From Fimbriiglobus sp. (GTDB lineage: Bacteria; Planctomycetota; Planctomycetia; Gemmatales; Gemmataceae): a stretch of 39,941 nt of DNA. The DNA lies in NCBI GenBank assembly GCA_025351325.1, contig JANXWE010000042.1, positions 1 to 39,941 of the forward strand, in the 5' to 3' direction. The notes beneath the pieces are model-generated. The model did no database searches, was not told where the DNA came from, and saw only the letters and a program-made list of their open reading frames with translations. Both the position numbers and the translations under genes were made by a program. Below are positions 863-25,937 of this stretch, in pieces. The stretch's first letter is position 1; each line of letters opens with the position of its first letter.

Positions 863-2236
863 GTGCTCACCATTTTCGGCAAGCCGCACCGTAACGGCGG
901 GTACTGCGATGGCGTGAATCGCCGTGACTTTTTGACCATCGGCGGCACGCTGCTGGGCGGTGGCCTGATGCTGCCGAACTTACTGGCGGCCGAAAAACAG
1001 GCGGGACTCGGTTCCTCACACCGCGCGGTCATCAACATTTTCTTGCCCGGTGGCCCGCCGCACCTCGACATGTTCGACTTGAAGCCGGACGCCCCCGTCG
1101 AAATCCGCGGCGAATTCAAGCCGATCAAAACGAACGTGCCGGGCATCGAAATTTGCGAGCATTTTCCGCTGTTGGCCAAGATGATGGACAAGTTCGCCAT
1201 CATCCGCTCACTGTCGGGCAGCAGTGGCGAACACGACGCGTACCAGTGCATGACCGGCCGGAAAAAAGAGCCGGCCAAGGCCGGGTTCTGGCCGTCGCTC
1301 GGGGGCTGGGTGTCCAAATTGCAAGGCCCGGTCGACCCGGCGATCCCGCCGAATCTGAGCATGATGTACCCGACCGGGGCCACCGGCTGGGGCCAGCCGG
1401 GCGACGGTGGTTTCACGGGCCTCGCCCACGCGCCGTTTCAACTGCTCGGCGCCAAGGCCACCGGCGTGAAGTCCGACAACATGACCCTCAAAGGGATCAC
1501 GCTGGAGCAATTGAACGACCGGGTCGGGCTGATGAAGGGGTTCGACGCGGTGGAACGCGGCATCGACAACAGCGGTCTGATGGAAGGGATGGATTCGTAC
1601 ACCCGCCAAGCGATGAACATCTTGACTTCGACCAAACTGAAGGACGCCCTCGATTTATCGAAGGAGCCGAAAGCGGTGCTCGAACGCTACGGTGTTGACG
1701 ACCCGATTTTCGAGCGTGACGGTGCCCCGCGGATGGTGCGAAACTTCTGCGTCGCCCGGCGTTTGGTCGAGGCGGGCGCGCGTGTGGTGACCATGAACTT
1801 CAGCCGCTGGGATTGGCACGGCCCGGACGGCAAAAACTTCGTCCAAGCCTGCAAAGACTTCCCACTGCTCGACCGGGCGCTGACATCACTCGTCACCGAT
1901 TTGCACGATCGGGGCCTCGATAAAACCGTCTCCGTCGTGGTCTGGGGCGAGTTCGGCCGCACCCCGCGCATTAACAAAGACGCGAGCCGCGATCACTGGC
2001 CGCAGGTGAGTTGCGCCTTGATGGCGGGCGGTGGCATGAAGACGGGCCAAGTCATCGGGGCCACGAACCGTTTGGCCGAACACGCCGTGTCCCGCCCGGT
2101 GACACACCAAGAAATCTTTGCGACGCTGTTCACCAACCTCGGGTTGAATCCGAGTGTGGATCGAGCCTTGGACACCAACGGACGACCGCATTTTTTAGTG
2201 GAAGATGGGGTTCAAGCCATCAAAGAATTGGCGTGA
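863..2236 (+). CDS. DUF1501 domain-containing protein with Tat-like signal
   Basis: The 457-residue protein starts at GTG 863, preceded by GGAGAAG at 852-858. The frame is open back to 773, but the start at 863 gives the usual family N-terminus: a short CDG segment, then the twin-arginine motif NRRDFLTIGG and a glycine-rich hydrophobic stretch. After it come the family hallmarks FLPGGPPHLDMFDLKPDA, ICEHFPLLAKMMDKFAIIRS, and near the C-terminus VVVWGEFGRTPRIN with DHWP. DUF1501 proteins belong to the alkaline-phosphatase/sulfatase-like fold and are predicted to be exported. In planctomycetes they usually accompany DUF1549/DUF1553 cytochrome-type proteins, which are absent here. The substrate is unknown. 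The 3' end overlaps the converging glycosyltransferase gene by 17 bases. Confidence 0.93.
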   Translation: MLTIFGKPHRNGGYCDGVNRRDFLTIGGTLLGGGLMLPNLLAAEKQAGLGSSHRAVINIFLPGGPPHLDMFDLKPDAPVEIRGEFKPIKTNVPGIEICEHFPLLAKMMDKFAIIRSLSGSSGEHDAYQCMTGRKKEPAKAGFWPSLGGWVSKLQGPVDPAIPPNLSMMYPTGATGWGQPGDGGFTGLAHAPFQLLGAKATGVKSDNMTLKGITLEQLNDRVGLMKGFDAVERGIDNSGLMEGMDSYTRQAMNILTSTKLKDALDLSKEPKAVLERYGVDDPIFERDGAPRMVRNFCVARRLVEAGARVVTMNFSRWDWHGPDGKNFVQACKDFPLLDRALTSLVTDLHDRGLDKTVSVVVWGEFGRTPRINKDASRDHWPQVSCALMAGGGMKTGQVIGATNRLAEHAVSRPVTHQEIFATLFTNLGLNPSVDRALDTNGRPHFLVEDGVQAIKELA

Positions 2237-3434
2237 GATGATCTGTCCACGCTTCGAGCTGGCACTGCTTCGAGAAGTGCTGTTGGTACACCTTCCAACA
2301 GTGCTTTTGCAGTGCCGAGCGTTCGGCGGGGTTCTCGGCGAGCCACTGCAATTCAATCGCTACTGCTGGGAGGTTGGTCGCATCGACGACCCAGCCGACG
2401 CGGTGTTCGTGGATCCACTTTGCAATTGCGGACTGATCCGAACCGGCGAAGAGGACGGCCCGTCCGACGGCAAGCGCCCCGAAGAATTTGGACGGCACCA
2501 CGGTGCCCGTCCACTCTTCCTGCAGGCTGACGAGGTGCAGATCGCACGCCGTGAGGCGGAGCTCCAATTCCGATTCCGGGGCGAAGCCGGCGAAGCGGAC
2601 GTTCACATCCGCAGCTTCCACCGCCGTTTTCAATTCGTCCGCTCGGTTCCCACGACCCGCGAAACAGAATTCGATCCCGGTGCCCCGGAGTCGGCGCGCG
2701 AGTGCCAGGAACTCGCGGTATCTGTGAGCCCGGCCGAAGCTGCCCGAATAGAGCAGCCCGAGTTTAACACCAGCGCCGAAGAGGTTGGCCCGCACGGTCG
2801 CGTCGGGTGAGACCACCGCCGACGGCTCGATGAGCGCCCATGGTGTGATGGTGGTAAGTGCGCTCGGCGAACTGTATTTCGTCAGCAGGTCCCGCATGCA
2901 CGGCCCTAGATTGGCGATGACCGAACAGCGGTGGTAGGCTTGCTTCAACAGGGCGGTGAGGGCTTTGGCGAGAAGTGAATTCGGCCGAACCAAACCGTCG
3001 GCCACGGCAGCTTCGGGGTAGAGGTCGAAGCACCAGTGGGCGACTCGGGAACCGGGCCGGAGGAACTTCCACGGCCACGCCACCAGCACGGACAGGACCG
3101 GATCGGTGCCGATGATGACGACCTCGCCCGGCGACCGCGGCAGGGTCAGCGCTTGCCAACTCCAGGCGGCGATCATCCAGAGCGCGTTGAGGATACGCCC
3201 CCGGTTGGACGCCTGCGCCCACGCGGGTCGCCAGAGCCGGCGGATCGTGCCACCGGCCCAAGTTTCAGCCGCTGGCAACGCGGTGTTATTCTTCCAAGTC
3301 CGGTTGCACGGGAGGGCCAGCACGTCGTACCCGCGCTCGGTCAACCCGACGGCGAGATCGGAGAATTGCCGGGCGCTCACGACGTCGTCGGGATGAAAGA
3401 AGTGATAGAGCAGGACGACTCGCGGACGCGTCAC
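2220..3434 (-). CDS. Glycosyltransferase, GT4-like (WcaI-type)
   Basis: The protein has 404 residues and a GTG start at 3434 that overlaps the upstream reductase stop (GTGA, 3431-3434), which indicates translational coupling. It begins with the GT-B N-terminal pattern [18 protein letters not shown]. The nucleotide-sugar half contains [27 protein letters not shown] and [20 protein letters not shown]. The last block resembles WcaI-type colanic-acid fucosyltransferases, in which the usual EX7E motif is replaced by a VPSK block. It probably adds one sugar to the lipid-linked glycan at the cytoplasmic face. Donor and acceptor cannot be read from sequence; a fucosyl donor would fit the preceding GDP-fucose-synthase-like gene, but that is inference. 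It is the last gene of the glycan operon and converges on the DUF1501 gene. Confidence 0.88.
2261..2316 (+). terminator. Nested inverted repeat, possible terminator of the DUF1501 transcript
   Basis: An outer pair GGCACTGC (2261-2268) / GCAGTGCC (2309-2316) encloses an inner perfect 7-bp stem CTGTTGG (2280-2286) / CCAACAG (2295-2301). The inner stem is followed by TGCTTTT on the plus strand. It lies 24 bases beyond the DUF1501 stop and inside the last codons of the converging glycosyltransferase. The T-run is short, so the terminator call is tentative. Confidence 0.33.
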
Positions 3435-4383: not shown

Positions 4384-6075
4384 TCACGTTGCGGCAGTCG
4401 CTTTGGTCACGAGGAACGGCCCCAGAGCGACCGCGTCGAGTTCGCTCCGCTTCAAGGTATCGAGGGCCACTTCGGGGGTGCCGACGATCGGGGAGCCGTG
4501 CAGATTGAAGCTCGTGTTCAGGAGCGCGCCTACCCCGGTGTGCTTCCGGAAGGCCCGGATGATATCGCGGTACTCGGGGTTCGTGTCGTTCACCACTTGT
4601 GGGCGAATCGTCCGATCAAATGGGTGAGTTCCGGCCACGAGTCGCTCGGCACCTTCGGGTGTGGTGTCGAAGGCTTCGGTCATGAAGAAGGCCCACTCGG
4701 TCGTCTTCTGGATGTACCGATCTTTATCCTCGTCCAGAACCGACGCGGCGAACGGCATCCAGAAGTCGCGCTGCTTGATGGCGAAGTTCAGTTTGCGGAC
4801 GGAACGGAGGTCGCGGGGGTCGGCCAAGATGCTGCGGTTGCCGAGCGCCCGCGGGCCGATCTCTTCGCGGCCGAAAAAGCGTGCGACGATCTTCTCGTTC
4901 GCCAGCAGCCCGCCGACTTCTTCCGCCGGGTTGGCCATGCGGTGGTAAGGCAGGCCACTCGCTTGAGCGGCGGTTTCCATTTCCGCGTCGGTGAACTCCA
5001 ATCCCAAATACATGTTCTTGGGCAGGTCGAGCGCGGGGGTCGCACGGAGTTGTTTGCAGAGTTCGAGGTAACCGAGGATGGCCCCGCCGATCGGCGTCCC
5101 GCCGTCGTCGCTGGCCGGGTAGACGTAGAGTGCTTCCACTTCGGGTAACTCGCGGATCAACTTATTCGCCTTCACATTCAGAAACGCTCCCCCGGCCGCA
5201 ACGACTTTACGCACTCCGGTAGCACGAACAGCATTGCGCACCCACTCCACCATCATCTCTTCGAAGGCCAATTGGGTGGCTGCACAGATGTTGTCGAACC
5301 GGTGGTGATACAGCTTGCTATGAAAGTAACCATAAAGCCCGGTCGCGTACTTGCCGGTGTTGTTGCGGAACTTCAAGCCGTCGACGGTGAACGCCCCCCG
5401 GATCGCGGCGATACTGTGCTCGGATTGCCCGTACGGAGCCATCCCCATCACTTTGTACTCGTGCTCGTACGGCCGCAACCCAAGGTGGGCGGTGATCGCC
5501 GAGTAGAGTCCGACCGCCGGGCTATGGTACTTGGGTGTCTGCGAAACGACCTCGATGGCGTCCCCGCGGCCAACGCTCACACTGGCGCAAATTCCGTCCC
5601 CCGCACCGTCGAGTGTCAGAATCGTGGCCGGATCGGCCCAAGGTCGATGGAAGTGAGCCGTGGCCGCGTGGCAGAGATGGTGGTCGAACGTCTTGACCGG
5701 CTTGCCGGCCAAACCGAATTCGGTCAGGCAGCGGAGCAGGTCGGCCCGCTTGCGAAACTTGGGCAGCAGCCACCGGCCGACATTCGTCGCCCACTCCGAG
5801 CGGGCGAGCGAGGTGATCGTATGCATGACGGAATACGTCGGCTTTTGCCCGAGTTTTGGCACCGAATTGCGGATGGTGCCGACCAGCGCAATCAGGTCGA
5901 CATCCTGCGGGTTCACTCCCGTGCGGTCGAACATGGCGCGGATGGATCGCTCCGGGATCCCGGCATGATTCTTGAGATTCACTCGTCGCTCTTCGTTGCT
6001 GACGAGAAGGACTCGGCCGTCCTTCAGCAAGCAGGCGCCGGCATCGTGCCCGTCGTTGATACTCAAGACGATCAT
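4384..6075 (-). CDS. Carbamoyltransferase, NodU/CmcH/TobZ family
   Basis: The 563-residue protein starts at ATG 6075, overlapping the upstream GT stop as ATGA (6072-6075). The frame is open to 6345, but the protein clearly begins [20 protein letters not shown], as the family does. The N-terminal Kae1/YrdC-like lobe has [12 protein letters not shown] (His132, His133 and His136), LDGAGDG (about 155-161) and KVMGMAPYG (about 208). The C-terminal lobe carries [20 protein letters not shown] and [15 protein letters not shown]. Family members transfer carbamoyl from carbamoyl phosphate, through an adenylate, onto a hydroxyl of a sugar or antibiotic. Its position among GT genes implies O-carbamoylation of a sugar in this glycan. 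The accepting sugar is unknown. Length and motifs are complete, so it should be active. Confidence 0.93.
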
Positions 6076-7313
6076 GAGTGGTGAATCCTCGGGGGGTTGG
6101 GGTGGATAGTAGACAAAATTATCGAATACATAGCGGCCACGTCGGTGCCGACGCGATCCCAGCTCAGGTGCTCGGCGACGTACCGCCGACCCGCTTCCCC
6201 AAGGGGCGCTCGACGGTCGGGTTGGGCGAGCAATTGCGTCAGGGCCACGGTGACGGCATCGACGTCCAACGGCACCACAAATCCGGCGTTCGCGGCCAGG
6301 ACGTGGTCGCACGATTGCACCCGATCCGACACGATTACCGGGCAACCGCGTGCCATCGCTTCGACGACGACTAGCCCGAAGTTCTCTTGGTGGCTGGGTA
6401 GAACGAATCCGGCGGCCCCGTCAAAGAGTCCCCAGCGGTTGGCAGGGGCGATCGATCCCAGCAGTGCGACGCGATGTTTCAGTTTGAGGCGGGCCATGGT
6501 CGCTTCGATTTCGGCCAGATAACGAGGTGAACCGTCGGCACCTCCAGCAATGGCCAGGAATGCCGGTATGTTCAATCGAGCCAAGGCAGGCAGGAGAAAA
6601 TCGGCAACGCCTTTTTTAGGATGAATTCTCGAAAGGAACAGCAGGATCGGGAGATCGGCGACGTCAGGCCCACAGAGCCGTCGGAGCGCCATTGGGTCAG
6701 GCGGGGTCGTCCACGCTTGCGGGTCGATGCCGAGCGGAATGGTGTGCACTGCCGGCGGCAAGTGAAGCCGCCGCAATTCGTCCGCTTCCCCGGCGCTGGT
6801 CGCATGCCACGCTGCGGCCCGTGAGATCATCCGGCGATCGCTCCAGCGCCAGTACACCGCTTTCTTGAGTCGTCCGCGCGACCACGAATAGGGCGACATC
6901 ATTCCCGCCGGTCGGACGATGTACGGAACCCCGGCGCGGAATGCGGCCCGCCCGGCCGAGGAGGACACGAGCGACCAAAGCGTGTGGATGTGGATCATGT
7001 CATAATCGGCAGCGTGGACGCGGAGCCAACGGGTCAAATCGGGAGAGTACTTTAATTTTCCGCGGAATGCCCTTGCGAAGCGATGAACAGGAATTCCTCG
7101 GCCGATCAAATTCCCATCGCCAGACAGTGCTTCGCCGCTCGGTACCGTCGTGGCGATTTCGACTCGGATCCCTCCAATTCGGTTGAGGGCGGCACACAAC
7201 GGGCCGATTGCGAGACTCGGGCCACCCTCCGCAAAAGAGATCGAGGGTATGACGTGGAGACACCGCAAACCGGGGCCGGTTCGTATTCGCTCAGACGCGT
7301 GTCCAAGTTCCAT
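6072..7313 (-). CDS. Glycosyltransferase family 4
   Basis: The protein has 413 residues from ATG 7313, which lies 2 bases after the asparagine-synthase stop (TGAAAATG). The longer open frame to 7406 would overlap that gene and is not preferred. The GT-B N-terminus reads LRCLHVIPSISFAEGGPS, with HIHTLWS further on. The C-terminal half has LLFLSRIHPKKGVADF and LPSHQENFGLVVVEAMARG, which contains the EX7E motif (E-NFGLVVV-E) of retaining GT4 enzymes, then GCPVIVSD. It is predicted to use a nucleotide sugar at the cytoplasmic membrane. It lies between the amidotransferase and the carbamoyltransferase, so it may add the sugar that one of them modifies, but that is guesswork. Confidence 0.9.
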   Translation of the reverse strand: MELGHASERIRTGPGLRCLHVIPSISFAEGGPSLAIGPLCAALNRIGGIRVEIATTVPSGEALSGDGNLIGRGIPVHRFARAFRGKLKYSPDLTRWLRVHAADYDMIHIHTLWSLVSSSAGRAAFRAGVPYIVRPAGMMSPYSWSRGRLKKAVYWRWSDRRMISRAAAWHATSAGEADELRRLHLPPAVHTIPLGIDPQAWTTPPDPMALRRLCGPDVADLPILLFLSRIHPKKGVADFLLPALARLNIPAFLAIAGGADGSPRYLAEIEATMARLKLKHRVALLGSIAPANRWGLFDGAAGFVLPSHQENFGLVVVEAMARGCPVIVSDRVQSCDHVLAANAGFVVPLDVDAVTVALTQLLAQPDRRAPLGEAGRRYVAEHLSWDRVGTDVAAMYSIILSTIHPNPPRIHHS

Positions 7314-7315
7314 TT

Positions 7316-9241
7316 TCACGGTGGCGAATCCGAAGTGGCTCGGCATTTGGTATTCAACGAAGCCAAGTAAAGCCCCAAACTGCAAAGGCTGAAAGGTCGG
7401 CTCCAAGCCGGATCGCCTCGGTCTTTGAGGAAATTGTTCCAGATTGCGTACAGGCCCTGTTTCTGAACAAGTCCCGAAACGGCGAGGGTCGCCAAGCCCG
7501 ATTCGCAGAGGTCACGCAGCGGCCCGCGCATCCACCGTCCGAGCGGCAGCGAAAAGCCTTGTTTGGGCCGTTCGCTGATTCCGGGCCGGAGCAGCGGGCG
7601 GAACGCTTCGCGGAGGAGATGCTTGTCCGAAGCGCCTTTCGGCATGCGGATGTGTCCGGGTGCGGCGTGCGCCAAATCGAGCATCCGCCGGTCGAGCATC
7701 GGCACCCGGATCTCCAACCCGTAAGACATCCCGTTGACATCCGCATCGGGAAGCAGCATGTGGCCTTGATAAAAATGAGATTCGAATCGTGAGATGGTTC
7801 GAATCGGATCATTCGTGTCCGACTCGAATTCGAACTCCGCTTCGGGCGGAAGATAATTCTGGGTCAGTCCGAGTTCGGACGGTTGATAGCCGAGCGTCAC
7901 CAACTGTCGATCCGATAACACCCGTCGCCGCTGGAGATAAAGCGAAAGCGAACTGCCGTCGCTCCCGGCCATGTCGGTGAGCTTCCGACGCGCGTCCGCG
8001 GACCAGCCGACTGCAACTCCACGCGCCATGATCCGGCGAAGAGCCGGGGGCAGGAATCGAATCCGCCGGAGCAATCTTTGGATGCGTGGTACGTCGCGGA
8101 AACTCGGATACCCACAGAACAATTCATCTCCACCCAACCCGGACAACGCGACTTTAACCCCCTCGCGCCGGACGGCGGCGGAGATGATCGCCACGTTGAG
8201 GCCATCAATGGATGGCTGATCGATCCGGCCCAACCAAGCGGTCGCCTCCCGCAGTGCTTCCCCCTCGGTAATTTGAATGGCGGTGTGAGACTGTCCGAAT
8301 AGGTGTGCCGTCTCCGAAGCGAGCGCAACTTCGCTCGCGGTTTCGTCGCCGAAGCCGACCGTGAAGCTTCGCGCCGACGAAGTATGGCGGGCGGCCAAAC
8401 CGGCAATAATCGTGCTGTCGAGGCCGGACGATAGAAAGATGCCGACGGGGACATCGGCGACGAGATGGTCTCGGACAACGAGATCGAGAGTCGAGCCGAC
8501 TTCGGCAACGGTTTGTTCTTGACCGAGATCGGATCGCGGAGGCGGATAATCCCAGTGCCGTTTGGGTCGGTCGGAGGCCCAAGCCCCCGCACCGCAAGGG
8601 CGGAATTCTTGCCAGGTACCAGGGGGTAGTGCGCGAATCGACGCGAAGAGAGTTCGGGGCTGTTGCAAAGCCCCGTAGGCGAGGAAGCCGGCGACCGCTT
8701 GGCGGTCGATCGCTTGTGGGATGAGCCCGGTGGCGTGGAGTGCCCGAACTTCACTCGCAAATAGCAGCGAGCCATCGATCTCGGCAACAAAGAGAGGTTT
8801 GATTCCCGCCGGGTCTCGGGCGAGGAGAAGCCGCTGGCCGCGCCGGTCGAAGTAGGCGAACGCAAACATTCCTTCGAGCTTGGCAAGAGCGTCCTGTCCC
8901 CAGCGGGTAAGTGCTCGCAACAACACTTCTGTATCGCATTGACTCGTGAATCGTTCTCCCGCCGCTTCCAGTTCGATCCGCAGTCGGCGGAAGTTGTAGA
9001 TCTCACCGTTAAAAATCAGCAGGTCGCCCGTGTCCGGGTGAACCATGGGTTGGTGGCCCGCCGGTGAAAGATCGAGAATCGCCAGTCGCCGAAATCCCAA
9101 ACCGAGGTGGAGTGACCCCATCCGCCGGTATTCCAAGCCGGAGTCATCAGGCCCACGATGGGTCTGTGCTTCGACCATCGTGGGCAACGCCCTGCGCACC
9201 GTTGTCTCGACTGGGGAAAGAATCCCGGCAATACCGCACAT
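7316..9241 (-). CDS. asnB: Asparagine synthase (glutamine-hydrolysing)-like amidotransferase
   Basis: The 641-residue protein has full length for the AsnB family. It begins MCGIAGIL, so Cys2 is the class II glutaminase nucleophile. FNGEIYN is at 77-83 and CDTEVLLRAL at about 102-111. The synthetase half has the PP-loop as SSGLDST (271-277), where most enzymes have SGGLDS, followed by GLGGDELFCGYP. The family makes asparagine from aspartate, but many copies inside polysaccharide clusters are thought to amidate a uronic acid or other carboxylate (WbpS-type). Location in a GT operon favours the second role; sequence alone does not decide it. A 42-base gap separates it from the preceding GT, and no clear Shine-Dalgarno sequence is visible. 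Confidence 0.93.
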   Translation of the reverse strand: MCGIAGILSPVETTVRRALPTMVEAQTHRGPDDSGLEYRRMGSLHLGLGFRRLAILDLSPAGHQPMVHPDTGDLLIFNGEIYNFRRLRIELEAAGERFTSQCDTEVLLRALTRWGQDALAKLEGMFAFAYFDRRGQRLLLARDPAGIKPLFVAEIDGSLLFASEVRALHATGLIPQAIDRQAVAGFLAYGALQQPRTLFASIRALPPGTWQEFRPCGAGAWASDRPKRHWDYPPPRSDLGQEQTVAEVGSTLDLVVRDHLVADVPVGIFLSSGLDSTIIAGLAARHTSSARSFTVGFGDETASEVALASETAHLFGQSHTAIQITEGEALREATAWLGRIDQPSIDGLNVAIISAAVRREGVKVALSGLGGDELFCGYPSFRDVPRIQRLLRRIRFLPPALRRIMARGVAVGWSADARRKLTDMAGSDGSSLSLYLQRRRVLSDRQLVTLGYQPSELGLTQNYLPPEAEFEFESDTNDPIRTISRFESHFYQGHMLLPDADVNGMSYGLEIRVPMLDRRMLDLAHAAPGHIRMPKGASDKHLLREAFRPLLRPGISERPKQGFSLPLGRWMRGPLRDLCESGLATLAVSGLVQKQGLYAIWNNFLKDRGDPAWSRPFSLCSLGLYLASLNTKCRATSDSPP

Positions 9242-9283: not shown

Positions 9284-10354
9284 TCACTCACCAACCCACC
9301 TCCGCAGGATGGTGAGAAATCGTTCGCGGAATGCGGAAAATCGAAAATGTTCGTTCCAACGGGCCACGCCATTCGCACCCAAACGAGCCGCCAATACAGG
9401 ATCGCGGAAGAGCCGGATGATGCGCTCAGTCAGTTCGTCCGGGCGATCGAGACTGATGTTGTACCCGGTCACCCCGTTGATGTTCACTTCCACGGCGGCG
9501 TCGTGGATCGAACCGATCACGGGCAGTCCGTATCGCATCGCTTCGATGTACACCAAACCGAATCCTTCGCCCCGGCTCGGCATGGCGAAGACCGTCGCCT
9601 TCCGCCAATAGGCGTCGATGCGATCTTCCGGCACGAACCCTGCGAATTCCACCTGTTGATCCGTGAGTCCCACGTCACCGGCCATTTTGCGAAACTCGGC
9701 GGCACTGGGGCCACTCCCGACAATTGTGAGGAGGGCATTGGGCACGACCGCGAGCACCTTCGGCCAACAGCGGATCAATTCTTCATGACCCTTATAACGG
9801 TCGAGTCGGGCTAAAATAAGAACATTCGGACGTGCCGCCGGGGCCATCGGTGCGGGGGCCGTCTCCGCTTCCGTCGCGAGCCAACAGAGTTCGGCATTCG
9901 CCAAACTCGGATCCAATTCCCCCGCCCGACTGCGAGTGTAGGCCGTGATCGCCACCCGCCGATTGGCACGCAAGAGTGCTTCCACTTGTTTCGGGTGGCA
10001 CGTCCCTGTCCACGCTTCGATTCCCATTTGGAACACGAGGTTCGGCCGGCGTGGAAACGGGAACCACTGGTGGCTGCGGGCCATGCCTCCGCAATCGTAA
10101 ATGAAGTGCGAGTGCTTGAAGAGTGCCGCGTTGACGGCCAGCACGTATTTGGCCCGCGACCCTTTGGCATATTTCAGATCCAGCCCGAGTTCGGGGGACG
10201 GTCCCGGATCGCTCAGCACCACCCCGCCGACACGGCACCGTCCCGCCGCTTGCTCCGCGGCCAGCACCTGGGCCATGAGCCGGGCGACGCGACAGACCCC
10301 GCCGTTGCCGGCCCGGACGGATTCGAACCCGAGGAAGAAATTCGGGATGTTCAA
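9284..10354 (-). CDS. Glycosyltransferase family 4 (TTG start)
   Basis: I place the start at TTG 10354, which overlaps the upstream stop as TTGA (10351-10354) and has GGGGAAG eight bases before it. This gives 356 residues beginning with NIPNFFLGFESVRAGNGGVC. The frame is open to 10690, but that extension is Arg/Pro-rich antisense-like sequence without GT character. Conserved GT4 elements are LILARLDRYKGHEELI, LTIVGSGPSAAEF, VEFAGFVPEDRIDAYW and MPSRGEGFGLVYIEAMRYG, which includes EX7E (E-GFGLVYI-E). It is a predicted cytoplasmic retaining sugar transferase for glycan assembly. Substrates are unknown. Confidence 0.9.
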   Translation of the reverse strand: MNIPNFFLGFESVRAGNGGVCRVARLMAQVLAAEQAAGRCRVGGVVLSDPGPSPELGLDLKYAKGSRAKYVLAVNAALFKHSHFIYDCGGMARSHQWFPFPRRPNLVFQMGIEAWTGTCHPKQVEALLRANRRVAITAYTRSRAGELDPSLANAELCWLATEAETAPAPMAPAARPNVLILARLDRYKGHEELIRCWPKVLAVVPNALLTIVGSGPSAAEFRKMAGDVGLTDQQVEFAGFVPEDRIDAYWRKATVFAMPSRGEGFGLVYIEAMRYGLPVIGSIHDAAVEVNINGVTGYNISLDRPDELTERIIRLFRDPVLAARLGANGVARWNEHFRFSAFRERFLTILRRWVGE

Positions 10355-11619
10355 ACGCAGGACTTCCCCAGTAATCGCTCGACGAATTCCCGAATCGAAG
10401 CCCGGTATCGAACCCATCCATTCACCTGGGCGAATTCGTAAGCCGCCCGACCCATCTCGGCGGTTCGGATTGGATTCGACAGCATTTGCTCCAAATGAGT
10501 CGCCAAGGCCTCGTCGTCGCCATGTTCGTAGGTCACGCCTTCGACCCCTTCGGTGATGAAGCCGGGGGCGCCGGTGTTCGAACTGGCGATGATCGGAGTG
10601 CCGCAGGACAGGGCTTCGTTCAGTACCAGCCCGAACCCATCGCACGCCGAGGGGAAGATGAAGAGTTGGGCAGCACAGTAATGCTTCCAAAGTTCGCTTC
10701 GAGGCCTGTTCGGGATGTGTTCATACATGCCGGCGTATTCTGCCAAGAACGAAGGTTGCAAGAACTGTTTCCCGATCAACCGGAGGGTATGGGTGCGGTA
10801 CGCCCCGAGTTTTTTCCAAACTCGCAGGAGTCGGGGAATGCCTTTTGCACGGCTCAGCCGCCCGACATAAAGTACTGTGTTCTCACGGCCGCGCAGCGGA
10901 TGGAAATCCCGCCCTGTTTCGCAACCGTACGGAACAACGGTGACTTTCTCGGGGTGGATCTTCGCATTCACCAAACTCTGTTTGACGAAATGTGACGGTG
11001 CTAAAATGTGGTCGGCCGTTTCGATTTCACGGTTCTTTCGCTTCAAACGGTCATATCGAAAAGGCGAAGTATCCACTTCAATCGCTTCGGCAGTTGGAAA
11101 CTCAAGTTGTTCCACGTCACGGATCTTTCGGACGGCCAAATGGTGCGCCGTCGGCAAGTCGTACAGTGCCTTCGCTCCGACCCGGTGCCCGGCTCGGAAC
11201 GTCTGCAAGCAGCAATCTTCACGACCGATCACGAGCCGATCCGTCTTTCGTACTTTTCGAGATGCGGCCCGATCCAGCTTGGAAAAGATGGCATCATTCG
11301 AGATGTCTGAAGGCCGCTTGAGCCCGAATTTGGACAAGACTTCAGTCAGGATCTCGGCAATGGGATGGAAATGAACATCCTTCGTTGGGATCGCTTCTCG
11401 GATGCAACGATTTTCGGTCGAGAGTCGGGTGCGACGATTCAGGAGTGTATCGAAGTATGTCAAGGCTGTTCCGGTTGCGGAATCGTCGTGATACGCCGCG
11501 CCGCAAACCATCGCCCGGAGCCAGTTCGTTTCGGCCAATGCCAGCGTATATTGCCGGGTGTCGGTCGGCAACACAGGGGCGACGCAAACGACGGAACGGG
11601 ATTGAACAACCGGCATCAT
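10351..11619 (-). CDS. Glycosyltransferase family 4 with atypical acidic motif
   Basis: The 422-residue protein starts at ATG 11619, overlapping the stop of the polymerase-like gene as ATGA (11616-11619). The C-terminal half is standard GT4: HILAPSHFVKQSLV, VTVVPYGCETG, VLYVGRLSRAKGIPRLLRVW, and FPSACDGFGLVLNEALSCG. In the EX7E position the first acid is Asp (D-GFGLVLN-E), seen in a minority of GT4 enzymes. The N-terminal half is longer and less typical than in its neighbours; it contains IGREDCCLQTFRAGHRVGA and lacks the usual GGxE/GG loop. It should be a sugar transferase in the same pathway. The substrate is not predictable. Confidence 0.87.
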   Translation of the reverse strand: MMPVVQSRSVVCVAPVLPTDTRQYTLALAETNWLRAMVCGAAYHDDSATGTALTYFDTLLNRRTRLSTENRCIREAIPTKDVHFHPIAEILTEVLSKFGLKRPSDISNDAIFSKLDRAASRKVRKTDRLVIGREDCCLQTFRAGHRVGAKALYDLPTAHHLAVRKIRDVEQLEFPTAEAIEVDTSPFRYDRLKRKNREIETADHILAPSHFVKQSLVNAKIHPEKVTVVPYGCETGRDFHPLRGRENTVLYVGRLSRAKGIPRLLRVWKKLGAYRTHTLRLIGKQFLQPSFLAEYAGMYEHIPNRPRSELWKHYCAAQLFIFPSACDGFGLVLNEALSCGTPIIASSNTGAPGFITEGVEGVTYEHGDDEALATHLEQMLSNPIRTAEMGRAAYEFAQVNGWVRYRASIREFVERLLGKSCV

Positions 11620-12938
11620 CGCCGCCCCTTCAACCGGGCCTGCATCTCGAAGACCGAAACGAGACACATCAGCGCAATCGCTTGATAAGTCGCTTGCATA
11701 TGATCGAAGACGATACTCATATTCAATCCGAAGATAATTAAGAAGACGGTCGGCCACCACGCTGCATACTTTGCTTGTCGGTCATCGGATGCGATCGACT
11801 GAATCCATGCAATCAGGATGACGAGCGAGCCGATTCGAACGAGATAGATTCCGCAAAATCCTAGAATTCCAACCTCGTAGACGACCCGGGCGTGCTCGCC
11901 CTCGGTCGAGACGAATACCGTCAAACTATTCTCCTTGGCGGACACTTGCCCACTCATCTGCGAAGACCCCAAGCCGACCCCGAATGGATACTCGGCGGCG
12001 ACGGCGGGGAGATCCGAGATGATTGTTCCGAACGCCCGGTCTTCGATTCCGTCCCCGGCCGCTTTGTGGCGGCTCCAAATTGCGTTGTGAATGCCAGCAT
12101 CGTTCGTGGATGCCTCATCGAAAAATGAGCCTCCGAATCCGTAGCCGAACAGCCCGATTATGGCGATGGCGATTCCGACGAGCCTCAATTTTGAATTGAA
12201 GATCAAGACAAGCGAAATGAGCGCAAGGCTGTACAACAACCCGCTCCGACTCATGGCAACTGCTGTACAGGTGAGACCGGCGAAGACGTAAATGTATCCG
12301 AGGGGTCGGCGGGGGAACCCGCCGACCAGCACCGCACCGGCCCAAGCTGTGATGATGCATAAATCTGCCATGCCGGTGATGTAAGAAAAGGTGCCGCTGG
12401 CACGCAGGCGTCCGGCATCTTCAACCGCCGAAGTCAGTTCGGTCGGCTGCTGATTCAGAAAATGGTCACTTGGCGAGTAAAATTGGATGCCGCCGAGAAT
12501 CGCATTCGCGATGGCACAGCATCCCACCACATGACAGATCGCGATAATGTCCGAGCGACCTGTCAGATTGCGACCGAGTAGCCAAGCGACCCAAGGGAGT
12601 ATCAATCCATTGCGGAGGGTGATCACCGCCCCCATCGGGTTCAATCCCTCAATGGCAATGAGACTGCCCATGAGTACAAGTACGGTTCCCACTGTCAGCA
12701 ATTGAGCCATCGGGCCGAAGATTGTCGATGCGGGCCGTTTGGGGTGAAGTAATGTCGAAAATACAGCGATGGCCAGAGGGACATCTTTGCTGAAATACAT
12801 CAGCGCTTGCACGGCCGGGACGCTGTTCGGCAAGAGCCACTTCCGCGCCGCCCCCTCGAAGACGCACAGCAAGATACTGGCGATCGCGCACCAGCCGACG
12901 GTCGAGATGCTCGGAGAGGGATCGATTCGGGACTTCAT
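11616..12938 (-). CDS. Polytopic membrane protein, O-antigen polymerase/ligase-like (Wzy/WaaL superfamily)
   Basis: The 440-residue protein starts at ATG 12938, overlapping the upstream GT stop as ATGA (12935-12938). About ten or more hydrophobic segments are visible, starting with GWCAIASILLCVFEG and ending with ATYQAIALMCLVSVFEM. A long soluble loop (roughly residues 260-355) holds IWSRHKAAGDGIEDRAFG, AEYPFGVGLGSS and ENSLTVFVSTEGEHARVVYE. An FGxGLGxS-like turn and a loop ending in a hydrophobic VYEVGILGF segment are what O-antigen ligases and polymerases show. It may polymerise repeat units or attach the finished glycan to a carrier. Sequence similarity in this superfamily is low, so the exact role is uncertain. 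Confidence 0.75.
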   Translation of the reverse strand: MKSRIDPSPSISTVGWCAIASILLCVFEGAARKWLLPNSVPAVQALMYFSKDVPLAIAVFSTLLHPKRPASTIFGPMAQLLTVGTVLVLMGSLIAIEGLNPMGAVITLRNGLILPWVAWLLGRNLTGRSDIIAICHVVGCCAIANAILGGIQFYSPSDHFLNQQPTELTSAVEDAGRLRASGTFSYITGMADLCIITAWAGAVLVGGFPRRPLGYIYVFAGLTCTAVAMSRSGLLYSLALISLVLIFNSKLRLVGIAIAIIGLFGYGFGGSFFDEASTNDAGIHNAIWSRHKAAGDGIEDRAFGTIISDLPAVAAEYPFGVGLGSSQMSGQVSAKENSLTVFVSTEGEHARVVYEVGILGFCGIYLVRIGSLVILIAWIQSIASDDRQAKYAAWWPTVFLIIFGLNMSIVFDHMQATYQAIALMCLVSVFEMQARLKGRR

Positions 12939-14059
12939 TTGGCAGTTTTCACACCGGCGGAGCGCAATATTTCGAGATATCGATCCGTCACTGATTCCTG
13001 CGTGAACAGCTGATTGGCCCGAGCGGTGCCACGCTCCGACAACCAAGCGCGGCGAACCGGATCGTTCGCCAGCCCGAGCATCGCGTCTGCCCATTTTGCC
13101 GGCTCCGTTGCGGGAACGAGCACTCCGGCATCGGCGATCACCTCGGGGCAAGCCCCGTGGTCGGATGCGATCACCGGACAACCGCACGCCAAGGCTTCGA
13201 CCATCACGATCCCGAACGCCTCTTCGACTTGAGTGGGGACGACCAAGGCCCACGCCTTCCGGTAATTGTCTGCCAGATCGGATCCGCGACGACTTCCGAG
13301 AAATTCCACCGTGTCCGCGACGCCTTCCCGCTTCGCGAGCCGTTCGAGATTCACTCGTTCCGGGCCGTCTCCGACCACACGCAATCGGAATCGAAGCCCT
13401 TGTCGCCGCGCGAGCGCGAAGCCGCGGATCGCGACATCGAATCCTTTGATGGGCACTAGTCTTCCGACGATCAGAAACGCGGGTTCTGGTGTCACTTCAT
13501 GGTCGGCATAGAACGTGGCAGGATCGAAGAAGTTGCCAATCACGTGTCCCTGGCGACCGACGCGCTTAGCGATGGACTCGGAAATATACACTGTTGCTGC
13601 GGCCCGCCTCATAGCCCAACGAAGCACCTTATTCCGGGTGATCGCTTTCACGTTGGCGAGCGTGGATTGGTTCGAAACATCGCAACCCATGCATTTGCGA
13701 AAAGAATATTGGCACACGGCACCATTGCGCCACCCGATCCCGATGGGGCAAGTCGCAATCGGCCCCGAATGCACGAGCACAAATGGGATTCCCAACCGCC
13801 AGGCGATGGGCAGCATCCGTGTCGCTGGTCCTTTGGAAAGAAGAACGTCACACACCGCCACGATGTCGCGCCGGCGAACCGTTCCGGCCCGGACGACCCG
13901 GTACGGGCGATCCAGTTCCACTGCCGAACCGAGTGGCGTCTCCGCGAACACCGTGACCGATTCACCTCGCCGTGCGAGGGCACCCGCCAAGCCGTCCACG
14001 AACGTTTCGATTCCCCCCGTGGACGGATGGAAGAACGCGGTGTGGATTAAGATGCGCAT
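12935..14059 (-). CDS. Glycosyltransferase family 4
   Basis: The protein has 374 residues from ATG 14059. It opens with the classical GT4 start MRILIHTAFFHPSTGGIET, with the GGIE acceptor-side loop. Further on it has FVLVHSGP, AFLIVGRLVPIKGFDVAI, LRVVGDGPERVNLERLA and VEFLGSRRGSDLADNYRKA. VPTQVEEAFGIVMVEALACG contains EX7E (E-AFGIVMV-E), followed by CPVIASDHGACPEVI. All elements of an active retaining GT-B enzyme are present. It is coupled to the polymerase/ligase-like gene by a 4-base overlap and follows an FkbM methyltransferase after 9 bases. The sugar donor is unknown. Confidence 0.92.
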   Translation of the reverse strand: MRILIHTAFFHPSTGGIETFVDGLAGALARRGESVTVFAETPLGSAVELDRPYRVVRAGTVRRRDIVAVCDVLLSKGPATRMLPIAWRLGIPFVLVHSGPIATCPIGIGWRNGAVCQYSFRKCMGCDVSNQSTLANVKAITRNKVLRWAMRRAAATVYISESIAKRVGRQGHVIGNFFDPATFYADHEVTPEPAFLIVGRLVPIKGFDVAIRGFALARRQGLRFRLRVVGDGPERVNLERLAKREGVADTVEFLGSRRGSDLADNYRKAWALVVPTQVEEAFGIVMVEALACGCPVIASDHGACPEVIADAGVLVPATEPAKWADAMLGLANDPVRRAWLSERGTARANQLFTQESVTDRYLEILRSAGVKTAK

Positions 14060-14068
14060 GGTTTCACT

Positions 14069-14944
14069 TCAACCTCGCAAGCAACACCAACCGCGCGGGG
14101 CGAGCCTTACGCGCACCCGTTCGGGTTCCCGAGACGCGACGAGGCTTGGCGCTTCCCATGTGGACTGTCCGGCCGATTCCGGTGCGACGAGTGCCGGCCC
14201 GCGGAAACGTTTGGTCAATCCGAAAACGGAATACCCGCGATCTTCAAAGAATGCCGTCACAGGATTCGGGTGAGGGTCGTGACTCTCGAAGACGCAATCG
14301 CGAACTCGACCTTCACCGAATAGATTCTGCCCGCCATTCAGAACATTCATTTCATGGCCTTCGACATCGATTTTCATGACGTGGATGCGGGTATCGTTTG
14401 GGAACATGTCATCTAATGTGACGGCCCGACAGTGTTCGCCGACGATGTCGACTTGGGCGGTGACACTCGACAATCCCCGGTTCTGCGCAAAACCTTCCGG
14501 TGTGACGATTGTCAATTGGCCCGCTTGATCGGAGACGGCGGCATTCAACAAGTTCGGTCGTGGGCGACCGGCCACCGCGTTTCTCGCCGCATTGTGTTCG
14601 AGATCCGCAAAGTTCTCGGGGTGCGGTTCGAAGGCCCAGACCTGTCCCGAGTGTGCCCGGTGGGCGAGCAGAACAGTCATGTAGCCGATGTTAGCTCCGA
14701 TGTCGGCGACCCGGTCGGTCGGATCGGTCAAGCGCCATAACACTTCGGAAACCAGCAGATCGTAGACGCCCAACGTGAGGATCGAACGCCCGATGGTTTC
14801 GGTGGGGCGGACGCGCAGGCTGTCGCCCCAAGGCAGTGTTGCGAAGGCGAACGGTTGCCGAACCCGTTGGGAATATCGCAACCGACTCAACAGTTTCCAA
14901 GGCCGGTAAATGTATTCCGGCTTCCACATTCCCAATGGATTCAC
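14069..14944 (-). CDS. FkbM family SAM-dependent methyltransferase
   Basis: The 291-residue protein starts at GTG 14944, with GGAAG six bases upstream; ATG 14929 (MWKPEYIYRP) is an alternative. The SAM-binding motif I is VADIGANIGYMTVLLA (residues 79-94), with the acidic ribose-binding residue in VWAFEPHPENF (about 102-112). The FkbM signature is VMKIDVEGHEMNVLNGG (about 189-205). FkbM enzymes methylate hydroxyls, and in surface-glycan clusters they are taken to O-methylate sugars. This is the first gene of a pair with the other FkbM at 17847-18635. The two differ strongly in sequence, so they probably have different targets. The last 40 residues are Arg-rich and less conserved. Confidence 0.9.
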   Translation of the reverse strand: MNPLGMWKPEYIYRPWKLLSRLRYSQRVRQPFAFATLPWGDSLRVRPTETIGRSILTLGVYDLLVSEVLWRLTDPTDRVADIGANIGYMTVLLAHRAHSGQVWAFEPHPENFADLEHNAARNAVAGRPRPNLLNAAVSDQAGQLTIVTPEGFAQNRGLSSVTAQVDIVGEHCRAVTLDDMFPNDTRIHVMKIDVEGHEMNVLNGGQNLFGEGRVRDCVFESHDPHPNPVTAFFEDRGYSVFGLTKRFRGPALVAPESAGQSTWEAPSLVASREPERVRVRLAPRGWCCLRG

Positions 14945-14975: not shown

Positions 14976-16085
14976 TCAAATGGACAGCAACTCGTCGATC
15001 AGATGGCGGCGGTGAAACCGACGTTCGTACAGGTCAAGGCTGGTACGGCGGAGTGTCTGTTGTCTACCCACCGACGACGCCACGCGGATGGCTTCCCGAA
15101 CGAAGCCCGGAACATCCCCGTCGGGTGCGAGTCCGACCGCGCCGGATTCGGCCCAGTACGGCTCGGTCAACCGGCCGGTGGTGGTGATCATCGGCAGACC
15201 GTTGGCCAAGCTTGCGAGCAAACTCGTGTTGCGTCCACTCGCTCCGCCCATCACCGCCTGCAACATCACTTGGCACCGGTGCAACTGACTCGGCACTTCT
15301 TCGAGTGGAACACTCCCCGTCGCCACGATCCGGTTGCGAAACGAATCGTGCAGCCGGAGAAATTCCTCTCGAAACGATTGGCTGCGGAGACCGATCAACA
15401 GGACGGACGCCTCCGGCATCGCGGACAACAACTCGGGCAAGATCGCGTGCAGCGGTTGGGCCGTCGACACTCCGAACGAACTGAAATGCCCGAAGGTGAA
15501 TTCGGGGGCGACCGATTCTCTCGTTTCGAGTTTCGGGACGCAACTCGGCACGGGGAGACGTCGGAAATCGGAACACTTCGGGGCGTACGGGCGGAGCACT
15601 TGTTCCCACATGGGGATCGTGCACCAGATGCGTGTTGCGGCCCGTAAAACGATGACAACCATCAACCGTTGAATCGCTGCCAGGAGGTGATGTCGCAGTT
15701 TTCCGCCGAAGGTCACGAATGCTTCGTGCACCATCAATTCGATCACATCGCCCCGGCACATCCGGCGATAGAGCCACCAGCAGAAGAGGAGGTTCATTGC
15801 CTTCCACCCGTAGCCGTGGGGCACCCATTGCACGAGCAGCCGACGGGGTTTCGGGAACGCATCCAACGCCCGATCCGCCTCCGCCAAGGCCGCACGTCCG
15901 AAATCTCCGAGGGTCGGGTGAACGGTCAACCCCGGCAAGTTTTGCTGATTTGCGGTCGGTGGACACCACACCGCCACGGTCAACCCGCGCTCCACGAGCC
16001 CTTCCGCAAGGATGCGGCAGAAATCGCTGACCCCCCCCGGCTCGGGCGGGTATTCGGGGGTGATGATGTGAAGGGAGTGGGTCAC
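14976..16085 (-). CDS. Glycosyltransferase, GT4-like, lacking an evident EX7E motif
   Basis: The protein has 369 residues from GTG 16085. The N-terminus SLHIITPEYPPEPGGVSDFC has the GG(V/I)xxF loop of GT4-type GT-B enzymes. The protein continues with LLVQWVPHGYGWKAMN and ELMVHEAFV. The C-terminal half reads FGHFSSFGV, SVLLIGLRSQSFREEF, ATGSVPLEEVPSQLHRCQ and then QAVMGGASGRNTSLLASLA. Where active GT4 enzymes have EX7E, this protein has GASGRNTSLLASLANG, without the two glutamates. It may belong to a GT group that uses other residues, or it may have lost activity. It lies 31 bases upstream of the FkbM gene and 48 bases downstream of the small methyltransferase. Confidence 0.82.
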   Translation of the reverse strand: MTHSLHIITPEYPPEPGGVSDFCRILAEGLVERGLTVAVWCPPTANQQNLPGLTVHPTLGDFGRAALAEADRALDAFPKPRRLLVQWVPHGYGWKAMNLLFCWWLYRRMCRGDVIELMVHEAFVTFGGKLRHHLLAAIQRLMVVIVLRAATRIWCTIPMWEQVLRPYAPKCSDFRRLPVPSCVPKLETRESVAPEFTFGHFSSFGVSTAQPLHAILPELLSAMPEASVLLIGLRSQSFREEFLRLHDSFRNRIVATGSVPLEEVPSQLHRCQVMLQAVMGGASGRNTSLLASLANGLPMITTTGRLTEPYWAESGAVGLAPDGDVPGFVREAIRVASSVGRQQTLRRTSLDLYERRFHRRHLIDELLSI

Positions 16086-16133: not shown

Positions 16134-16727
16134 TTATACAGGGAGCCTGTGAAGAATGGTCAATGAGTCCACTTCCTCAATCACTTGGAACCGTGGATCA
16201 CGTCGGATCATATCTTGCGTGTATCGAACGCTACCTGCTTCATGGATCGGCCTGAGTCGGGTGGATATGCTGTCGTGCAGCGAAATAATTCCACCCGGCT
16301 TCACCAGGGGCGACCATCCCTCCCAATCACCTTTTAACCCCTCCCAACTGTGATCCCCATCGATGAATACGAAATCCACTTCACCGTCGAGTTTCGGCGA
16401 CAGATCTCGGGCCGCGAATTCTCCGGTCTTCCGGATCCATTCGACCCTTCCGTTCGGGATACGGGCGACCTCCGCATGCGCAATTCGCAGTTGGAAGCTG
16501 AAACGCAACCGGCCAATCGGATAAGGATCGACGGCGTAGACGACCCCGTCGGACGCCATCGCAGCGCGAATCCGGCAAGTCGTGACCCCATGCCAGACGC
16601 CGATTTCGACCAGGCAACGCTTGCCCGCGGCGTGGCGAGCGATCGCGTCGCGTTCGTCCGCCGTGGTTTGCGTCTCGGCATCGGCCAATCCAAATCGCCA
16701 ACGCAAGAAGTGTTTGAGGTTGATCAT
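16134..16727 (-). CDS. Class I SAM-dependent methyltransferase (Methyltransf_24-like)
   Basis: This compact 197-residue protein starts at ATG 16727, overlapping the upstream GT stop as ATGA (16724-16727). Motif I is LVEIGVWHGVTTCRIRAAM (about residues 39-57), followed by VYAVDPYPIG. Then come VDFVFIDGDHSWEGLKGDW and LVKPGGIISLHDS. The FIDGDHSxxGxxxDW block is typical of the Methyltransf_24 group found in glycan and natural-product clusters. It probably O-methylates a sugar of the glycan. With the two FkbM genes it makes three methyltransferases in this operon. The acceptor is unknown. Confidence 0.87.
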   Translation of the reverse strand: MINLKHFLRWRFGLADAETQTTADERDAIARHAAGKRCLVEIGVWHGVTTCRIRAAMASDGVVYAVDPYPIGRLRFSFQLRIAHAEVARIPNGRVEWIRKTGEFAARDLSPKLDGEVDFVFIDGDHSWEGLKGDWEGWSPLVKPGGIISLHDSISTRLRPIHEAGSVRYTQDMIRRDPRFQVIEEVDSLTILHRLPV

Positions 16728-17917: not shown

Positions 17918-18635
17918 CGGAATAGGCGATTGAAATGCCCAACGCCATTTCGAGATCGAATCGTTCGAACCCGAGTGATGTTAAGATTTCGCACACTCGA
18001 GCGGTAGTTTTCGGACTGGTTTCGATAACAATCCACGGCCGCCATCGAGCCAGTGTGATCTTCGCACCTTCGAGGACTTCGATTTCGTGACCTTCCACAT
18101 CGATCTTTATAAAATCGATCTCCTCGTTGAGATTCAAATTGTCGAGAGTGACGCACTGAACCGGGATATTGATCGATTCGAATGGCTGATCGACTCCGGG
18201 AGTGCCGAGACTCGCCCATCCGTGATATTCCCTTCCGTTGACGACCGGAACGTGGAGGAATGATTCGGACGAGTTGTTCGAGAGTGCGATGCAATGCAGT
18301 TGTACGTTGGATGGCACGACTGATCGCCATGGCTCCGCAAAAGCCGCATTCGGTTCAAAAGAATGCACTTTGCAGAATCGACGGGAGAGTAGCAGCGATG
18401 TCATCCCGTCATTTGCTCCGATGTCGAGCGCGACATGCCGTCGGTTTCGCGGGAGATAGTCATCCATGCGAAACAATTCGGGTGGTCGTTTCGGATTCCA
18501 CTGCCACAGCAGCGTCGTGGCTCGGAGGCGTAAGCCGGGTGGCAACTTCGTGGCCACTTTTACGAGGATTCGATTCAAGATCGCATGTAACATGAACTTG
18601 CATTCTCGAAAGGCGAAAAAAGTGACCGCCCGCAT
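17847..18635 (-). CDS. FkbM family SAM-dependent methyltransferase
   Basis: The protein has 262 residues from ATG 18635, which directly abuts the stop of the Wzt-type gene (TAAATG). ATG 18593 (MLHAILNRIL) is an alternative start. Motif I is VALDIGANDGMTSLLLS (about 68-84), the acidic ribose contact is in VHSFEPNAAF, and the FkbM signature is FIKIDVEGHEIEVLEGA (about 175-191). It is predicted to O-methylate a sugar hydroxyl. Directly following the exporter ATPase, it could act at the chain end and cap the polymer before export, as terminal methyl groups do in some ABC-exported O antigens. That role is inference. A 60-base sample (18121-18180) has 28 G/C, well below the neighbouring ATPase core. 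Confidence 0.9.
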   Translation of the reverse strand: MRAVTFFAFRECKFMLHAILNRILVKVATKLPPGLRLRATTLLWQWNPKRPPELFRMDDYLPRNRRHVALDIGANDGMTSLLLSRRFCKVHSFEPNAAFAEPWRSVVPSNVQLHCIALSNNSSESFLHVPVVNGREYHGWASLGTPGVDQPFESINIPVQCVTLDNLNLNEEIDFIKIDVEGHEIEVLEGAKITLARWRPWIVIETSPKTTARVCEILTSLGFERFDLEMALGISIAYSDEIYRPIEVANTRKAEVANSSGS

Positions 18636-22454: not shown

Positions 22455-22460
22455 TGTGCC

Positions 22461-25910: not shown

Positions 25911-25937
25911 GACTCGCCGGTTATCCAAGGGTTCACC

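Follow-up and report, generated by a model that had tools for sequence, protein, structure and literature searches.

A carbamoyltransferase and an AsnB-like amidotransferase with an altered acceptor pocket flank one glycosyltransferase in a predicted surface-glycan operon of Fimbriiglobus

We analyzed a 39,941-nucleotide stretch of DNA from the planctomycete Fimbriiglobus sp. (assembly GCA_025351325.1, contig JANXWE010000042.1), hereafter the window, which is one entire contig (C237) of a 5.09 Mb genome in 382 contigs that is 96% complete. Our subject is three successive genes on its minus strand that encode an AsnB-like glutamine-dependent amidotransferase, a single glycosyltransferase (GT) of family GT4 (GT_b), and a NodU/CmcH-type O-carbamoyltransferase (Table 1). 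The AsnB-like gene reads from an ATG at 9241 to a stop at 7316 and is separated by two bases (7314-7315) from the GT_b ATG at 7313, and the GT_b stop overlaps the carbamoyltransferase ATG by four bases (ATGA, 6072-6075). A mechanically called TTG start of the carbamoyltransferase at 6345 was rejected in favor of the ATG at 6075. The next two junctions are also four-base overlaps (GTGA at 4384-4387 and 3431-3434), and the coupling extends past the trio through an Fcl-like gene and a second GT4 gene, GT_a. An earlier note made from the letters of this DNA alone (the sequence-only reading) had placed a carbamoyltransferase and a class II amidotransferase around one GT, coupled to it by overlap or a 2-base gap, in an operon with three methyltransferases; the coordinates confirm this arrangement, and the methyltransferases are two of FkbM type and one of Methyltransf_24 type. 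All Pfam matches of the trio exceeded the curated cut-offs (Carbam_trans_N, 126 bits; Carbam_trans_C, 179; Asn_synthase, 220; GATase_7, 138; GT4, 85). Full-length domain matches and conserved catalytic residues, described below, exclude chance open reading frames and agree with the earlier prediction of such enzymes in a glycan operon. The best NCBIfam matches of the two GTs were HpsP for GT_b (235 bits; cut-off 550) and the WcaI family for GT_a (77 bits; cut-off 276). We infer that the locus is the decoration section of a surface-glycan operon whose product would be exported by a Wzm/Wzt ATP-binding cassette (ABC) transporter, the genes of which (20801-18636) head the closely spaced minus-strand run that ends at GT_a.

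The carbamoyltransferase matched TobZ, GdmN, and the novobiocin carbamoyltransferases of the PDB in phmmer searches (E 1e-52 to 1e-38), and both of its domains, Kae1-like and YrdC-like (Carbam_trans_N and _C), are above the Pfam cut-off. Its HHxxH motif (H132/H136 with H133), D156, D323-324, and H10 are invariant in 7 of 7 close relatives. In GdmN, two His and two Asp residues are metal ligands and one His is the general base (PMC9633730); with these roles assigned solely by alignment and motif, the window enzyme looks catalytically complete. It shares the two-domain architecture, HHxxH, and the Asp metal-binding residues with NodU, NolO, TobZ, and GdmN (class III) and with WapO of Pseudomonas lipopolysaccharide, which act on hydroxyl acceptors and are in some cases encoded in glycan loci. 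It differs from NodU, TobZ, GdmN, and WapO in belonging to a clade of its own with archaeal members and in its linkage to GDP-fucose genes, and it missed the NCBIfam NodU equivalog cut-off (92.9 of 1000 bits).

This clade emerged from a scan of named genomes for carbamoyltransferase loci, in which the best 80 of 97 relatives were kept. A group of 30 loci (L148-L173, L179, L185, L188, and L207) was first chosen by approximately 40% or greater identity, and the tree recovered exactly these 30 loci and the window as one clade of 31 rows with support 100; six loci outside the group (L174, L178, L180, L181, L206, and L220) reach 40-44% identity in their best segment. The clade spans Planctomycetota, one acidobacterial metagenome-assembled genome (MAG), Patescibacteria, Chloroflexota, Myxococcota, and archaea, including Thorarchaeota, Heimdallarchaeota, Aenigmatarchaeota, and Woesearchaeota. 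True Fcl or Gmd genes (matches to their own profiles of >370 and >350 bits, respectively) occur in the flanks of 10 of the 30 clade loci compared to 0 of the 50 other loci, so that all 11 rows labeled for Fcl or Gmd, the window included, lie inside the clade. This label requires 8 changes on the carbamoyltransferase tree, which implies that the linkage was gained and lost repeatedly. Fcl or Gmd directly adjoins the carbamoyltransferase gene in the window and in L149, L160, L207, L161, and L166, and is one gene away in L159 and L164 (Gmd-Fcl-GT-carbamoyltransferase). Both Gmd and Fcl lie near clade carbamoyltransferases in Asgard archaea (the Thorarchaeota MAG L166 and the Heimdallarchaeota MAG L168). 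In the Fimbriiglobus genome itself, Gmd is encoded on contig C101 and scores above the NCBI cut-off. The Cys and His of the window Fcl-like protein, which we take to serve the epimerase reaction, and its YxxxK motif, whose catalytic role we likewise presume, align with those of E. coli Fcl.

The AsnB-like enzyme shares a class II glutaminase site and a PP-loop domain with the AsnB asparagine synthetases. It keeps the glutaminase residues Cys1, Asn74, Glu76, and Asp98 and the synthetase-site residues Ser234, Asp238, and Lys449, with the SGG of the PP-loop reading SSG, and it looks catalytically complete. The sequence-only reading turned on this protein not being the housekeeping enzyme of the organism, and that position held. 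A second full-length AsnB of housekeeping type is encoded on contig C33, which rules out the window copy as the only asparagine synthetase of the genome; AsnA is absent from this genome, and further PF00733 matches on C183 and C60 (loci L009 and L010) are partial, at 26-29 bits. The window protein is 25-28% identical to the C33 copy and to E. coli AsnB. In an IQ-TREE tree of 88 AsnB-like proteins, the housekeeping enzymes form a group of 23 rows (support 99) that includes C33, and the window protein belongs to a distinct group of 25 rows (support 100), every one of them from Planctomycetota. AsnB proteins outside Planctomycetota were sampled only from carbamoyltransferase neighborhoods and E. 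coli, so that confinement of the clade to this phylum does not follow. The protein set comprised open reading frames with MCG of >450 amino acids, less 10 duplicate or overlapping entries, with G045, G038, L207, and WbqG added by hand; the housekeeping label was set beforehand from identity and a shared Glu348, and the tree then recovered these rows as one group. NCBIfam scores were rejected as a discriminator: the window protein scored 375.8 bits against TIGR01536 (asparagine synthase; cut-off 267.1), which was passed by all seven AsnB-like proteins scanned, including E. coli AsnB, WbqG, and C33. The related TIGR03108 family of XrtA/PEP-CTERM amidotransferases gave 368.9 bits, well under its cut-off of 816.9, and no exosortase was recognized among the window proteins scanned by Pfam.

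The acceptor pocket separates these groups. The window enzyme has Leu at AS-B position 348, Asp at 387, and Val at 390, unlike the asparagine synthetases E. coli AsnB and C33, which have Glu348 and a basic residue 387. Housekeeping rows carry Glu at 348, Lys or Arg at 387, and Arg at 390 without exception (23/23 each). In the window clade, position 348 is Leu, Thr, Ala, Val, or Ile (25/25), position 387 is Asp (24/25) or Glu (1/25), and Arg390 is never present (0/25); hence no member is acidic at 348 or basic at 387. The window enzyme has thus lost the Glu that binds aspartate and both basic residues of the K/R-x-D/N-R/K motif. The motif was located at a fixed distance before an LExRxP anchor in 21 of the 25 clade rows and 18 of the 23 housekeeping rows, and from the alignment only in the others. 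Glu364 and Asp367 of human asparagine synthetase are conserved in known enzymes, and the E364A, E364Q, and D367A variants are inactive (PMC6748925), and Arg403 contacts the aspartyl carboxylate in a modeled complex (PMC11615228); alignment and a numbering offset map Glu364, Asp367, and Arg403 to AS-B positions 348, 351, and 387. Genomic context differs as well: GT-like genes lie within approximately 1.5 kb of 12 of 19 window-clade AsnB loci and of none of 19 housekeeping loci whose flanks were of comparable length, and the window gene itself sits in a glycan operon.

AsnB-type enzymes that amidate sugars are known, and the sequence-only reading had suggested a comparison with WbpS. WbpS, WbqG, and PGN_1234 are AsnB-type amidotransferases of glycan loci that make uronamides, and WbqG of E. 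coli O121, a homolog of WbpS, is needed for uronamide formation (PMC7468200 for both). WbpS of H. pullorum is an AsnB-type uronamide enzyme (PMC6025236), and AsnB-type glycan amidation is described for the b-Cool locus (PMC12407052). The window gene resembles WbpS, WbqG, and PGN_1234 in its AsnB architecture, its glycan locus, and an AsnB gene followed by an overlapping or adjacent GT4 gene. In E. coli O121 (L231, 31095-34099), wbqG and the GT4 gene after it share 46 bases, an arrangement reminiscent of the AsnB-like gene and GT_b in the window. The pocket did not turn out to be WbpS-like, however. WbqG, taken from E. coli O121 strain RM8352, has Asp348, Lys387, and Arg390, as do all 8 of 8 members of its clade, unlike the Leu/Asp/Val of the window enzyme. 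WbqG was added after the IQ-TREE run, and its position comes from a FastTree tree of 89 rows, in which the WbqG clade, the housekeeping group, the window clade, and four Gottesmanbacteria/Patescibacteria proteins form separate groups, each with support 100. By these sequence comparisons, the window enzyme does not belong with the ordinary asparagine synthetases or with WbpS/WbqG, and its acceptor is probably neither aspartate nor a uronate handled in the manner of WbqG. Standing outside the WbqG clade is compatible with a uronic acid as the acceptor.

Co-occurrence of the three genes was surveyed in 102 genomes of the order. Close homologs of the carbamoyltransferase (E<=1e-160) occur in 7 genomes (G000, G045, G033, G095, G096, G099, and G038), of AsnB (E<=1e-100) in 6 (G000, G045, G046, G068, G071, and G038), and of GT_b (E<=1e-60) in 6. 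AsnB and carbamoyltransferase genes lie on one contig at most 6 kb apart in three (G000, G045, and G038), and the contiguous AsnB-GT4-carbamoyltransferase order recurs in G045, which is of the same genus. AsnB and the carbamoyltransferase are separable, since each is found without the other: G068 has AsnB-GT_b without a carbamoyltransferase, and G033 has carbamoyltransferase-Fcl without AsnB. GT_b-carbamoyltransferase occurs in G096 on a 5.3 kb contig that begins inside GT_b. In G046, a third species of the genus, the contig stops inside AsnB, and no carbamoyltransferase was found elsewhere in the genome; contig ends likewise truncate the loci of G096, G038, and G216. A further planctomycete locus (L251, G279:C23, 4797-10098) carries, in this order, a window-clade AsnB, a distant (31%) carbamoyltransferase in an 835-residue frame, and a GT_a that is 50% identical; the 15 kb of this locus contain neither Fcl nor Gmd.

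Among the scanned carbamoyltransferase loci, one GT4 gene alone lies between AsnB and carbamoyltransferase in L148 (a Fimbriiglobus sp. MAG), L160, and L165, and two or three genes lie between them in L207 and L171. The Patescibacterial loci read (Fcl)-carbamoyltransferase-GT4-AsnB-GT4-Wzm-Wzt, an order unlike that of the window; their ABC genes include relatives of the Wzt-like gene, and the four Gottesmanbacteria/Patescibacteria AsnB proteins carry Leu at 348, and neither 387 nor 390 is basic in them. An AsnB match of >150 bits occurs in the fetched flanks of 18 of the 80 loci (22 at a looser E<=1e-10), comprising 9 of the 30 window-clade loci compared to 9 of the 50 others (Fisher p 0.27), so that AsnB as a specific partner of the carbamoyltransferase clade is not supported. 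Two of the 9 (L167 and L170) carry a Glu348/Lys387 AsnB approximately 5 kb away, and L173 is outside the pocket table. Co-occurrence of the trio, which the sequence-only reading had asked to be checked, was borne out in part: the genes are contiguous again in one congener and grouped in another order in Gottesmanbacteria/Patescibacteria, but they are separable and the AsnB linkage is not specific. Two side observations concern these loci. L160, in a Gottesmanbacteria cluster, has a NeuB-family gene (17875-18936) downstream of Wzm/Wzt, hinting at a nonulosonic acid in that glycan, and L198 (Lentisphaerae GWF2_50_93) has four AsnB-profile matches, three of them full length, in 17 kb around one carbamoyltransferase gene.

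Sister operons retain much of the same backbone. In G016, from the same family, the operon reads GT_f, GT_e, GT_d, GT_c, GT_b, GT2, Fcl, and GT_a; the order follows that of the window, and scored matches are 49-79% identical (50-79% for GT_c, GT_d, GT_e, GT_b, and Fcl). There is no AsnB between GT_c and GT_b, and the carbamoyltransferase site is occupied by a gene for a 203-residue hexapeptide-repeat protein (26.7 bits; cut-off 27). A stop-ridden remnant of a carbamoyltransferase C terminus (L270, G016:C19, 3152-3232, minus strand) lies between this gene and the GT2-Fcl pair. G011 has GT_b, a GT4 gene, a hexapeptide gene (53% identical to that of G016; 45.6 bits, above the cut-off), GT2, Fcl, and GT_a; GT_a thus follows Fcl in these operons as well. 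Hexapeptide-repeat proteins of glycan loci are often O-acetyltransferases. These two genomes hint that one modification of a hydroxyl has been exchanged for another while the backbone was conserved; the AsnB decoration is absent as well.

We lean slightly toward a reading in which the carbamoyl group is placed on a fucose-type residue and the AsnB-like enzyme adds an amide, or a related group, to a different building block, as separable decorations. Fcl and the Gmd encoded on C101 would make GDP-L-fucose, and GT_a, itself a sub-threshold WcaI match, or the adjacent GT2 in relatives, would place L-fucose. The carbamoyltransferase, its enzyme type assigned from homology and its fucose acceptor from gene linkage, would use carbamoyl phosphate and ATP to form an O-carbamoylated fucose-type residue before or after transfer. 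The AsnB-like enzyme would hydrolyze glutamine and adenylate a non-aspartate acceptor elsewhere in the same glycan. If fucose is the carbamoylated residue, the amide must be on some other one, since 6-deoxyhexoses lack a carboxyl at C6. Several observations weigh against fucose as the acceptor. The Fcl-like protein scores 289.5 bits against GDPFucSynFcl, below the cut-off of 500; the Fisher p of 1.8e-5 for the Fcl/Gmd linkage ignores shared descent; 20 of the 30 clade loci have no Fcl or Gmd in the fetched flanks, partly because contigs end, and the long flanks of the G095 and G099 loci have none; and other GTs of the operon could supply other carbamoyl acceptors. Moreover, Fcl is frequent, being present in 48 of the 102 genomes of the order, and its adjacency might simply reflect the frequency of fucose, the carbamoyl group being placed on another sugar, such as the residue added by GT_b, and AsnB decorating a further one. 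GT_b overlaps the carbamoyltransferase gene here and adjoins it in G045 and G096, and relatives carbamoylate heptose (WapO, PMC8005017) or the glucosamine of Nod factors (PMC4881576). We nevertheless regard this alternative as somewhat unlikely, because Fcl/Gmd linkage turns up in both bacterial and archaeal phyla but in none of the 50 loci outside the carbamoyltransferase clade.

The sequence-only reading had proposed that a carbamoyl group and an amide are installed on the same sugar, which might be a uronic acid; in that case AsnB would be a uronamide synthase of WbpS/WbqG type. The known uronamide enzymes of glycan loci and the abutting wbqG-GT4 pair are in keeping with this proposal, as is a UDP-glucose 6-dehydrogenase gene beside Gmd on C101, the only UDPG_MGDP_dh match of the genome; UDP-glucuronic acid can thus be made, and a uronic acid may be in the glycan, which also tells against fucose. 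The proposal fared poorly on other grounds and now seems improbable: WbqG belongs to another clade with a different pocket, Pfam recognized no uronate-making gene in the operon proteins that were scanned, the AsnB and carbamoyltransferase genes are separable, and the carbamoyltransferase clade is tied to synthesis of GDP-fucose, whose 6-deoxy sugar offers no C6 carboxyl. We consider it very unlikely that the AsnB-like enzyme has kept asparagine synthesis or a role in general nitrogen metabolism and owes its place in the operon to chance. Its TIGR01536 score is above the cut-off, but so are those of WbqG and C33, and the housekeeping copy on C33, the loss of the aspartate-pocket residues throughout the clade, and the GT-like neighbors all speak against this role. 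More speculative than the placement of carbamoyl on fucose and of the amide elsewhere, and rather doubtful as a whole, is an extension to two unnamed enzyme groups. One would be a family of fucose O-carbamoyltransferases that bacteria share with archaea, among them Asgard and DPANN lineages. The other would be an 'RD-x-D' set of AsnB-like enzymes, widespread in Planctomycetota, in which the charge of the acceptor pocket is reversed; their product would be neither asparagine nor a WbpS-type uronamide but some other nitrogen group, possibly formed on a sugar that is neutral or bears an amine, and conceivably an amidine. If so, the pocket loss in the Patescibacterial AsnB proteins beside the same carbamoyltransferase would mean a common acceptor.

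Carbamoylated sugars, such as the WapO heptose (PMC8005017) and Nod factors (PMC4881576), and AsnB-type glycan amidation are already known. New, as far as the literature searched shows, are the link between the carbamoyltransferase clade and GDP-fucose genes across bacteria and archaea and the AsnB-like group with a charge-reversed pocket. Our search, which was thin on subscription journals and included carbamoyl-fucose and planctomycete carbamoyltransferase and AsnB topics, found no description of a carbamoyltransferase-AsnB pairing and no carbamoyl or amide group assigned to a planctomycete glycan. Carbamoyl and amide groups alter how a cell surface is charged, forms hydrogen bonds, and is recognized. 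The gene linkage offers fucose as a concrete candidate acceptor for a clade of carbamoyltransferases with both bacterial and archaeal members. Positions 348, 387, and 390 provide a simple sequence rule that separates asparagine synthetases, WbqG-type enzymes, and the third group, which score-based annotation labels as asparagine synthase.

Table 1. Predicted products of the glycan operon in the window.
Feature	Coordinates	Strand	Basis
GT_a, GT4 glycosyltransferase, best match WcaI family, sub-threshold	2220..3434	-	Pfam, NCBIfam
Fcl-like GDP-L-fucose synthase, SDR, 318 aa	3431..4387	-	Pfam Epimerase; NCBIfam GDPFucSynFcl
Carbamoyltransferase, NodU/CmcH-type O-, 563 aa	4384..6075	-	Pfam Carbam_trans_N and _C; clade linked to GDP-fucose genes
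GT_b, GT4 glycosyltransferase, 413 aa	6072..7313	-	Pfam Glycos_transf_1 and Glyco_trans_4_4
AsnB-like glutamine-dependent amidotransferase, 641 aa, altered acceptor pocket	7316..9241	-	Pfam, residues, trees
GT_c, GT4 glycosyltransferase, start uncertain	9284..10417	-	Pfam
GT_d, GT4 glycosyltransferase	10351..11619	-	Pfam
Membrane protein, weak Wzy_C/O-antigen ligase match (19 bits, cut-off 31.7)	11616..12938	-	Pfam
GT_e, GT4 glycosyltransferase	12935..14059	-	Pfam
FkbM-type methyltransferase	14069..14944	-	Pfam
GT_f, glycosyltransferase, weak Glyco_trans_1_4	14976..16085	-	Pfam
Methyltransf_24-type methyltransferase	16134..16727	-	Pfam
GT_g, GT4 glycosyltransferase	16724..17917	-	Pfam
FkbM-type methyltransferase (second)	17847..18635	-	Pfam
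Wzt-like ABC transporter ATPase	18636..19871	-	Pfam
Wzm-like ABC-2 permease	19875..20801	-	Pfam

Three further observations were made elsewhere in the window. At the end of the operon, a plus-strand DUF1501 gene converges on GT_a, and the ends of the two overlap by 17 bases (2220-2236). Divergent from the glycan operon, plus-strand genes at 20982-29294 encode an HlyD-type adaptor followed by two tandem AcrB-family RND pumps. A minus-strand gene at 29446-33039 encodes a 1197-residue protein in which many TPR repeats follow a protein kinase domain.

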